DNA of 64,000 bases from Vreelandella neptunia (GTDB lineage: Bacteria; Pseudomonadota; Gammaproteobacteria; Pseudomonadales; Halomonadaceae): assembly GCF_034479615.1 (NCBI RefSeq), contig NZ_CP140255.1, positions 124,001 to 188,000 on the forward strand, given 5' to 3'. The position numbers were made by a program, and so were the translations under genes. Under the pieces are notes generated by a model, which was not told the DNA's origin, searched no databases, and worked only from the letters and a program-made list of their open reading frames with translations. This document shows positions 1 through 21,752 of the stretch, one piece after another (the first letter of the stretch is position 1; every line of letters begins with the position of its first letter).

Positions 1-285
1 TTGAAAGCTTTCGACCATCGCCTGATCGATCAGTCTACAGCGGAGATTGTTGAAACCGCTAAACGTACTGGTGCTCAGGTTCGTGGTCCGATTCCGCTGC
101 CGACCAACCGCGAGCGTTACACCATTCTGATCTCACCGCACGTCAACAAAGATGCGCGTGACCAGTATGAGATTCGTACGCACAAGCGTGTGCTCGACAT
201 TGTTGAGCCGACCGAAAAAACTGTTGATGCTTTGATGAAACTTGATCTCGCCGCAGGCGTAGACGTGCAAATCAAACTCAACTAA
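1..285 (+). CDS. rpsJ: 30S ribosomal protein S10 (5' end missing)
   Basis: Small-subunit protein of the 30S head; it also serves as NusE in transcription antitermination. The visible part begins at a leucine matching residue 10 of E. coli S10 ([10 protein letters not shown]) and continues to the normal C-terminus ([13 protein letters not shown]), so about nine N-terminal codons lie upstream of the window. The TTG at base 1 is an internal leucine codon, not a start. It is the first gene of the S10 operon and is followed by an unusually long, structured 161-base gap before rplC. Confidence 0.97.
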
Positions 286-446
286 TTACACTAGTCACTT
301 TGCGGCCCAGCGCTCATCGCTCTTTGTAAAGAGTTGGCATGAGCAGCAGCCGCCGCGCCGTGAGGCGCCATACAATGTGCTAGTGGAATGCTCTGGAAAG
401 GGCAGCCATAGCGGGTGATAGCCCCGTACACTATAGGAGACTGAGT
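286..446 (+). promoter_or_regulatory. Structured rpsJ-rplC intercistronic leader with 23S rRNA-like segment
   Basis: This gap folds into three parts. Stem-loop one pairs 312-317 with 339-344 and 320-324 with 329-333. Stem-loop two has arms 355-359 and 364-368 closed by a GTGA tetraloop. Bases 376-433 closely resemble E. coli 23S rRNA domain I around nt 288-345. The closing helix (376-380 with 426-430) and an inner helix (389-393 with 400-404) are kept by compensatory changes relative to E. coli. The rplC Shine-Dalgarno (AGGAGA, 435-440) follows immediately. The 23S comparison is from memory. A role as a binding site for L4 or L3 is inference. Confidence 0.6.
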
Positions 447-1085
447 ATGACTATCGGTTTAGTCGGTAAAAAGGCCGGGATGACCCGTGTCTTTACCGAA
501 GACGGCGCGTCTGTGCCCGTAACCGTTATTGAAGTTGATCCTAATCGTGTTACACGCGTTAAATCTGTCGAGTCTGACGGTTACGCAGCGATTCAGGTCA
601 CATCTGGCTCTCGTAAAGCTAAGCACCTCACCAAAGCGCAAGCTGGACAGTTTGCCAAGGCGGGTGTTGAAGCTGGTCGTGCACTGATGGAATTTCGTCT
701 TGCAGAAGGCGAAGAGATTCCTGAAGTAGGCGGCGAAATCACCGTATCCCTCTTCGAAGCTGGTCAAATGGTTGACGTGACTGGCACCTCTAAGGGTAAA
801 GGCTTCCAGGGTGCTGTTAAGCGCTGGAACTTCCGCACCCAAGATATGACTCACGGTAACTCTCTGTCGCATCGCGCGCCGGGTTCTATCGGCATGTGTC
901 AGACTCCGGGTCGCGTTTTCAAAGGCAAAAAGATGGCCGGTCAAATGGGTAACGCCCGTTGCACCGTGCAGAGCCTTGAGATCGTCCGTGTCGACGCCGA
1001 GCGTAACCTGCTGCTGATTAAAGGCGCCGTACCGGGTGCTCCCGGTAGTGACGTTATCGTTCGCAGCGCCGTGAAAGCAGGCTGA
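447..1085 (+). CDS. rplC: 50S ribosomal protein L3
   Basis: Primary 23S-binding protein that reaches toward the peptidyl-transferase centre. The 212 residues match the family over their whole length, from the [16 protein letters not shown] start through the central extension ([23 protein letters not shown], about residues 147-169) to the C-terminal strand. The Gln in CQTPG corresponds to the residue methylated by PrmB in E. coli. The ATG has an AGGAGA ribosome binding site seven bases upstream, directly after the 23S-like leader element, so folding there could control this start. Confidence 0.98.
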
Positions 1086-1100
1086 AGGGGATAATTACCA

Positions 1101-1706
1101 ATGAATCTGAATCTTGCTGCAGGCACGGGTACCGTTGAAGTAGCCGACGCCACTTTTGGCAAAGAATTCAACGAAGCGCTCGTTCACCAGGTTGTCACTG
1201 CCTATTTGGCGGCTGGTCGTCAGGGAACCCGCGCACAAAAGAGTCGTTCCGACGTTCGTGGCGGTGGTAAAAAGCCGTGGCGTCAGAAAGGCACCGGTCG
1301 TGCACGTGCCGGTACCATCCGCTCTCCGCTATGGCGTAGTGGTGGCGTAACCTTCGCGGCGCGTCCGCAAGACTACACCCAGAAGGTTAACCGCAAGATG
1401 TACCGTGCAGCGATGCGCTCCATCTTGTCAGAGCTGGTACGTCAAGAGCGTTTAGTCGCGATTGAAGAATTCGTCGTTGATGCGCCTAAGACCAAGCAGG
1501 TAGCTGCCAAGCTAAAAGAGCTCAACCTTGAGAAAGTGTTGATCGTTACTGAAGAAGTTGACGAAAAGCTCTATTTAGCCGCGCGCAACCTTCCCCACGT
1601 TGACGTGGTGGATGTCGCGGCAGCTGACCCGGTAAGCCTGGTAGCCTTTGATAAGGTGCTGATTACCGTCTCCGCCCTGCGTAAATTCGAGGAGAAGCTG
1701 GCATGA
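1101..1706 (+). CDS. rplD: 50S ribosomal protein L4
   Basis: Binds 23S rRNA domain I early in assembly and lines the exit tunnel. In enterobacteria it also represses its own S10 operon. The 201 residues include the extended loop [19 protein letters not shown] (about residues 54-72) and the conserved C-terminal fold ending RKFEEKLA. It lies 15 bases after rplC and overlaps rplW by four bases (ATGA), so it is translated as part of the S10 mRNA. Its presence two genes downstream of a 23S domain I look-alike is why feedback by L4 is suspected here. Confidence 0.98.
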
Positions 1707-5539: not shown

Positions 5540-5854
5540 ATGCAAAAGATCAAACGTGACGATGAAGTCATCGTCATCGCCGGGAAGGATAAAGGCAAGC
5601 GTGGCACCGTTAAGCGGGTATTAGAAAACCGCTTTTTGGTGTCCGGTGTGAACATGATTAAACGTCACACCAAGCCAAATCCCATGGCGGGTAATCAGGG
5701 CGGTATCGTCGAGCGTGAGGCTCCGATTCACGCGTCCAACGTAGCCATCTTCAATTCGGAGACCGGTAAGGCGGATCGCGTCGGCTTCCAAGTGAAGGAA
5801 GACGGTACCAAGGTACGTATCTACAAGTCGACGCAGACGCAGATCGACGCCTAA
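5540..5854 (+). CDS. rplX: 50S ribosomal protein L24
   Basis: Assembly-initiator protein binding 23S domain I. The 104 residues show the KOW motif ([22 protein letters not shown], about 7-28) followed by the conserved [12 protein letters not shown] segment. Lies 14 bases after rplN with a GGAGCGAGG ribosome binding site. Confidence 0.97.
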
Positions 5855-21590: not shown

Positions 21591-21605
21591 TGGTAAGCGT
21601 TACCA

Positions 21606-21685
21606 CGACTCCCTACGCCGGTGTTATCCGGTTCAGGTTCAAAGGGTGCTTCTCAGCCCACCCGTAACGGAGGGCGCCCCTGTCG
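21606..21685 (-). promoter_or_regulatory. TPP riboswitch (thi box)
   Basis: Read on the minus strand, this contains the hallmark thi-box segments CTGAGA, ACCCTTTGAACCTGA and CCGGATAACACCGGCG in order, with CGAC/GTCG able to close P1. Position directly upstream of thiM confirms the assignment. It likely controls the whole thiM-thiE-lysR mRNA. Confidence 0.95.
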
Positions 21686-21752
21686 AGGGATTACTATCCT
21701 TGCCTGAAGTAGCCCTGTAAAGCCCTCCTGCGCCATCGCACATCTCTTTATC

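Follow-up and report, generated by a model that had tools for sequence, protein, structure and literature searches.

A 23S rRNA domain I mimic between rpsJ and rplC in Vreelandella neptunia and its relatives, a putative operator for ribosomal protein L4

A 23S-like segment in a long intergenic gap

Why are rpsJ and rplC, neighbors in a tightly packed ribosomal protein gene cluster, separated by a long stretch of noncoding DNA? We examined this question in a 64,000-nt stretch of Vreelandella neptunia DNA (contig NZ_CP140255.1, positions 124,001 to 188,000), referred to here as the window. The window begins within rpsJ, which is followed by rplC, rplD, and then further genes of the S10 and spc operons (Table 1). 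The gap between the end of rpsJ at 285 and the start of rplC at 447 is 161 nt, whereas each of the next eight junctions measures -4 to 33 nt; the original prediction, made from the sequence alone, had rightly called this gap unusually long. Rfam yielded no match at E ≤ 10 in window positions 1-1500 and nothing relevant in 1.2 kb around the rpsJ start. Scans of positions 1-700 detected neither a promoter-like site nor a + strand terminator-like site, leaving an attenuator or a separate transcript start in the gap unsupported. The sole Rfam match in the window at gathering score is a TPP riboswitch (RF00059) at 21593-21691 on the - strand, with 69.1 bits.

Part of the gap had been proposed to resemble E. 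coli 23S rRNA nt 288-345 at roughly 46 of 58 positions. An ungapped comparison of window positions 376-433 with E. coli K-12 rrlB reproduced this figure exactly (46/58), and nt 288 was the best placement of the segment within rrlB nt 1-860. By comparison, the best of 2,000 shuffled queries against the same 860 nt reached 33 identities, as did the best of the other + strand 58-mers of the window, sampled every 7 bases and not overlapping the element. The stem differences are compensatory, as had also been claimed, with UGCUC/GGGCA here in place of GCGUC/GGCGC in E. coli. Identity to the host's own 23S rRNA is lower than to that of E. coli (37/56). With indels allowed, local alignment of the full rpsJ-rplC gap likewise scored 208 against E. 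coli 23S, above the shuffle maximum of 161, and 149 against host 23S, which falls inside the shuffle range (mean 129, maximum 183).

Because the alignment to host 23S fell within the range of shuffled sequences, we built two covariance models: R1, from 31 mRNA elements only (alignment A1), and R2, from 31 23S segments only (alignment A2). When run on the 64-kb window, R2 returned a single match at E ≤ 10, located at 379-434 (73.2 bits, E = 6.9e-20). Conversely, R1 run on the whole 4.95-Mb host genome gave 78 bits for the element and 48.5 bits (E = 3e-7) for the six 23S genes; there was no further match at E ≤ 10 (150 of 2,427 first-look candidates scored), and thus no second copy of the element outside 23S. 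R1 also matched all 31 supplied 23S loci, although R1 itself had selected most of them, so that this number is not independent. The E. coli 23S sequence, in contrast, was fetched by accession, and here R1 matched positions 432-487 of the retrieved locus, which correspond to 23S nt 291-346. Genome G063 contains an additional weak match to R2 (contig C10, 8379-8446; 26.4 bits, E = 0.0015), with a 23S gene some 5 kb away.

The mRNA thus reproduces both the sequence and the structure of an rRNA site, and the proposed domain I mimicry is borne out by the ungapped match together with the reciprocal models. At 379-434, the mRNA holds a conserved structure modeled on 23S rRNA domain I, corresponding to E. 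coli nt 291-346. Some details of the original prediction required correction. The likeness extends over 376-433 as described, and the conserved unit is 379-434. The element does lie close to the rplC Shine-Dalgarno sequence, at a distance of 3 bases rather than 4: the closing CAC ends at 431, AGGAG begins at 435, and the rplC start codon ATG is at 447. Both predicted hairpins are present in the MFE fold, one (312-344) inside a longer stem at 302-353 and the other at 355-368 with a GUGA loop, but they do not belong to the conserved unit, since positions 286-379 are only 57% conserved.

Table 1. Features of the rpsJ-rplC region and nearby genes, in window coordinates
Feature	Position	Strand	Basis and remarks
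rpsJ (S10)	1..285	+	Pfam PF00338; 5′ part cut by window start
CACUAGUCAC	289..298	+	Pairs with GUGCUAGUG at 377-385 (9 bp, one bulge); in part of the host's family only
Upstream hairpin	302..353	+	MFE stem; low conservation, differs between relatives
Upstream hairpin with GUGA loop	355..368	+	MFE fold
GUGCUAGUG	377..385	+	Strand common to the alternative helix and the closing helix of the mimic
23S rRNA domain I mimic	379..434	+	Exact R1 and R2 match; gapless end to end against E. coli 23S nt 291-346
Closing helix, 5′ strand GUG	383..385	+	Pairs with CAC 429-431; counted on A1; same helix covaries in 23S
Stem-loop UGCUC-UGGAAA-GGGCA	389..404	+	389-393 paired with 400-404; covarying stem
Core GCCAUAGCGGGUGAUAGCCCCGUA	405..428	+	Most conserved part; 23/24 identical to host 23S genes
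Closing helix, 3′ strand CAC	429..431	+	A1; covaries in 23S
Shine-Dalgarno AGGAG of rplC	435..439	+	Sequence; 3 bases past the closing helix
rplC (L3)	447..1085	+	Pfam PF00297; first gene 3′ of the mimic
rplD (L4)	1101..1706	+	Pfam PF00573; next gene but one after the mimic; product is the likely ligand
rplX (L24)	5540..5854		In the window

Distribution, covariation and selection

Within the host's family, a search with positions 376-446 found matches in 247 of 250 genomes, covering all 24 genera. Among the matches listed, identity was 99-100%, with divergent genera read individually; the three genomes without a match also gave no rplC match. We then expanded the search to 32 other families of the order, each represented by one genome in which rplC was found. 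R1 detected the element in 25 of these families at E ≤ 1 (weakest E, 0.005), although 20 of the 25 elements were themselves inside the model. R2, which contains no mRNA, detected it in 23 of the 32 at E ≤ 1 and in 21 at E ≤ 0.01. All 25 elements sit in the rpsJ-rplC gap. The expected conservation in relatives is therefore present at both the family and the order level.

The seven families without the element (loci L085, L087, L088, L090, L094, L096, and L098) have short gaps of 19-48 nt, which indicates that the element is dispensable. Searching with R1 for a moved copy in 11 order genomes in which the element or rplC had not been found, we obtained matches in one genome, three in number and all in 23S genes; in the ten others not even 23S was matched, so absence is only weakly tested there. 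Single in-frame stops interrupt the rplC reading of three genomes that are 74-86% complete (G045, G046, and G053), for which assembly error is our guess.

A pattern scan of named genomes gave at least 119 loci. Among those listed, 114 lie in the rpsJ-rplC gap, three lie beside rplC or rpsJ at the end of a contig or locus, and two fall in 23S-like sequence; 117 of 119 among the matches listed are thus at the rpsJ-rplC junction, and the element is consistently upstream of ribosomal protein genes, as is typical of ribosomal protein leaders (r-leaders). The 80 loci listed by name include Pseudomonas putida, P. fluorescens, P. protegens, Stutzerimonas, Marinobacter, Oceanospirillum, Gilvimarinus, Saccharophagus, Chromohalobacter, Salinicola, and Vreelandella. 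A stricter pattern that includes the rplC start (ATGAC) was present in at least 92 of 293 order genomes, and the reversed pattern, used as a control, in none. Outside the order, the best 27 R1 loci within the class were all in 23S genes. The class sample comprised 56 genomes, with rplC found in 51 including the host; the 29 non-host rplC loci returned and tested, all from other orders, contained no R1 match at E ≤ 1.

To assess pairing, we used A1, a MAFFT alignment that was not fitted to structure. It holds 31 chosen sequences, of which 11 are variants from the host's family and the others are 20 of the 25 elements from the order. Large indels or strong divergence led us to leave out five loci (L069, L081, L091, L092, and L093), which R1 still finds with 20.9 to 54.6 bits. 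In A1, 93.4% of cells are paired, and 7 of 13 pairs have changed on both sides, including all five pairs of the stem 389-393/400-404. None of 500 shuffles of A1 reached any of five pairing measures, although shuffling does not control for relatedness; slid controls, which do, gave 19-57% paired. The GGG/CCC helix hardly varies and is uninformative on covariation, and in 14 of the 31 elements one pair of the closing helix (columns 9 and 54) is not a standard one. The helices of the mimic covary in 23S as well. Pairing is therefore retained across homologues, with covarying stems among the 31 sequences, as the original prediction anticipated and as is characteristic of r-leaders.

Four of the loci left out of A1 vary in stem or loop. 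The stem is longer in L081 and L091, and the GGG/CCC loop is bigger in L069 and L092, with the core bases kept throughout. Such a pattern is expected of an RNA fold. The long extra stretch inside the GGGU...AGCCCC loop of L092 (130-218, - strand) and L069 is reminiscent of an expansion segment.

The original prediction had offered, as an alternative, that the segment is an inert fragment of rRNA. The 23/24 identity of the core to the host 23S genes would suit an inert or recently copied fragment, which would be expected to evolve with the host's 23S or to decay. We observed neither. Across 59 family loci (57 distinct gaps, with the host present twice as L001 and L011), mean pairwise identity is 95.2% in the mimic (380-433) and 57.4% in the gap before it, compared with 59.5% and 61.4% at fourfold sites of rplC and rpsJ, respectively. 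In 17 genomes, the identity of the mimic to its own 23S (0.729) is much the same as to the 23S of other hosts (0.727; permutation P = 0.36), with a mimic-to-mimic identity of 0.752 and a segment-to-segment identity of 0.826 for 23S. This comparison used the host and 16 of 20 fetched 23S segments; G065, G069, and G074 were left out for indel-rich or very divergent mimics and G113 because its mimic was not cut out. Since the mimic does not track its own 23S, it is old and maintained in its own right. Taken together with the covariation and with its unchanging location in most of the order's families that were sampled, these results make an inert fragment almost certainly the wrong explanation. 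Gene conversion was likewise rejected on the covariation, the conservation contrast, and the own-versus-other identities. In the host's 23S (L002, 1475-1530), the closing helix reads AGGC..GUCG rather than the usual AGUG..CACG, while the mimic keeps the usual form.

Candidate ligands and a proposed mode of control

To identify which features of the rRNA are retained, we compared conservation in the mRNA and 23S sets. At 18 positions, the two sets share a base that is at least 90% conserved in each (E. coli 295, 299, 300, 317, 318, 322, 325-328, 332-337, 339, and 340), and in the core at 405-428 this holds for 15 of 24 positions. In contrast, the apical loop and the base that follows it (E. coli 306-308 and 310-312) are invariant in the 23S set and 48-87% conserved in the mimic, although most of the 23S set was chosen with R1, which biases it towards 23S sequences that resemble the mimic. 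What the mimic retains seems to be a binding surface rather than the whole rRNA element. The loop UGGAAAG at E. coli 23S nt 306-312, which is near-invariant in 23S and looser in the mimic, may serve another contact in the ribosome.

L4 has a site at about 23S nt 295-343 and cross-links to nt 320-325, both inside the span of the mimic. Domain I RNA has been described as a specific target of, and competitor for, L4 (passages of PMC7186457), and initial binding of L4 is to 23S domain I, as outlined in sections of PMC2672003. In E. coli, L4 is the repressor of the S10 operon, and its binding to the mRNA is outcompeted by the 23S site (passages of a 2024 review, PMC10931766). On this basis, we propose that 379-434 is probably an L4 operator, through which L4 would prevent rplC and the genes behind it from being translated.

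Other ligands were weighed. The same mimic could be read by L24 or, less likely, by L22, L23, or L29 of the cluster, with repression of the S10-spc block. L24 initiates assembly close to the 5′ end of 23S, and domain I is the first binding site of L22, as it is of L4; both L24 and L22 assemble at the 5′ part of 23S (sections of PMC2672003). With rplX also in the window, this counts against the L4 reading. However, the looser conservation of the apical loop in the mimic indicates that whatever binds the mimic does not need it, which speaks against these proteins, and the uL24 passages of the 2024 review name no operon repression, while L4 is a known repressor (PMC10931766). We therefore regard L24 or its neighbors as an unlikely ligand. 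L3 is the product of the very next gene, rplC lying immediately 3′ of the mimic, and had been raised as an alternative. It assembles at the 3′ end of 23S rather than on domain I (sections of PMC2672003), and a ligand is not reliably predicted by which gene comes next (passages of PMC7247131). These points make L3 very unlikely.

The structure might also act with no ribosomal protein at all. It could influence translation or RNA stability at the rplC junction, be a target of an RNase, or recruit a ribosome assembly factor that reads this part of domain I. The 15 core positions shared between mRNA and 23S fit such a role, and the upstream hairpins might be used in processing. For stability or for translation starts in general, however, there would be no need of 56 nt of 23S-like sequence and fold, and the operon encoding L4 is where L4 feedback would be expected. 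We consider a function of this kind quite unlikely.

Under the L4 model, output of L4 beyond its uptake by 23S rRNA would leave free L4 to bind the mimic. The bound fold, with its closing helix just before the Shine-Dalgarno sequence, would exclude the 30S subunit from rplC. The rplC start codon follows the closing CAC at a distance of 13-38 nt (median, 16) in the 114 gaps of named genomes among the loci listed and of 12-21 nt (median, 15) in the other loci. Given this closeness, a protein holding the fold would overlap the 30S landing site. Expression of the tightly packed genes after rplC would drop together with that of rplC, as their junctions of -4 to 33 nt are close enough for coupling, while rpsJ, 5′ of the mimic, would escape control. 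Fresh 23S rRNA would compete L4 off the mimic and lift the block. With no + strand terminator in 1-700, translational repression is the simpler reading, and attenuation, the other half of what happens in E. coli, is unsupported.

In part of the host's family, the gap also holds a strand (289-298) able to pair with the 5′ side of the closing helix (Table 1). The motif CACTAG occurs in the first 30 nt of all 47 distinct family gaps with GTGCTAGTG and in none of the 14 without it. This co-occurrence may reflect one inherited event, and the switch reading is suggestive only. The MFE is -61.8 kcal/mol, compared with -61.4 kcal/mol when the alternative helix is forced and -52.6 kcal/mol when the rRNA-like fold is forced. 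The free RNA is thus predicted not to take the rRNA-like fold by itself, and the missing energy would have to come from protein or tertiary contacts. In gaps with the 289-298 strand, this strand may hold the closing helix open when L4 is not bound.

Relation to known ribosomal protein operators

The closest functional parallel is the S10 leader of E. coli, through which L4 controls both transcription and translation of its own operon and which shares with the mimic the operon, the likely regulator, and the competition between mRNA and 23S sites for L4 (passages of PMC10931766). As described, the two differ in that the E. coli site precedes rpsJ and acts partly by attenuation, whereas the mimic lies between rpsJ and rplC and copies 23S at the sequence level. 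The element should not be called an E. coli-type S10 leader, since the feature that defines such leaders by place, a site in the 5′ UTR before rpsJ, is absent: the mimic is 3′ of rpsJ. Nor was a Rho-independent attenuator present in 1-700, the stretch before rpsJ having been covered by the Rfam scan only. According to passages of the 2024 review, the E. coli-type L4 site is conserved in enterobacteria, Haemophilus, and Vibrio, and conservation is not shown for Pseudomonas (PMC10931766).

Other operators resemble the mimic in design. The L1 operator in the rplK-rplA mRNA closely resembles 23S in both sequence and secondary structure, and rRNA wins the competition for the protein (passages of PMC10931766); it involves another protein and another part of 23S and is no relative of the mimic. 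The S8 (spc) and S7 (str) operators lie between genes of their operons, and the S8 site resembles the 16S site (passages of PMC2704228 and PMC10931766), but these are read by 30S proteins on other RNA and are likewise unrelated. Predicted r-leaders for L4 in Archaeoglobi and for L2 in Alphaproteobacteria occur in the same gene cluster, one of them regulating rplC-rplD, yet they belong to other lineages, and the table that lists them does not mark them as rRNA-like (PMC7247131). That study, by Eckert and Weinberg in 2020, reported 20 new leaders; in the passages covered, L4 appears only for Archaeoglobi, and none is given for the relatives of Pseudomonas or Halomonas (PMC7247131). The rpsJ motif of Peptostreptococcaceae, described in 2024, is also a predicted leader in the S10 gene cluster, but it lies before rpsJ in another lineage, and no link to 23S was found in the passages describing it (PMC11109978). 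The main text of that survey places the rpsJ motif in Peptostreptococcaceae only and mentions neither rplC nor Pseudomonas (PMC11109978).

In the literature searched, we found no recognizable report of a 23S mimic between rpsJ and rplC, including the portions covered of PMC2864571, PMC2965389, PMC6429828, and PMC12548453; older key papers fell outside the search, and an earlier mention is possible. We therefore file the element as a putative ribosomal protein operator acting by rRNA mimicry, new in its place, lineage, and degree of likeness. As an rRNA mimic it is unusually literal, with covariance models built from mRNA and from 23S finding each other. The positions kept by the mimic, compared with those kept by 23S, may separate the bases needed by the protein from those needed by the rest of the ribosome.

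For the S10 operon of Pseudomonas and its relatives, the literature covered describes no mechanism of balance, and the mimic offers a concrete candidate in most sampled families of the order. We think it somewhat better than an even bet that the element is an L4 operator across the order. Pseudomonas, Marinobacter, Halomonas, and their kin would then have lost the E. coli leader, or never possessed it, and would gauge L4 against 23S rRNA directly through a piece of 23S carried in the S10 mRNA, thereby uncoupling rpsJ from the rest of the operon. In Halomonas and its nearest kin, the upstream strand would make this a two-state switch driven by the protein.
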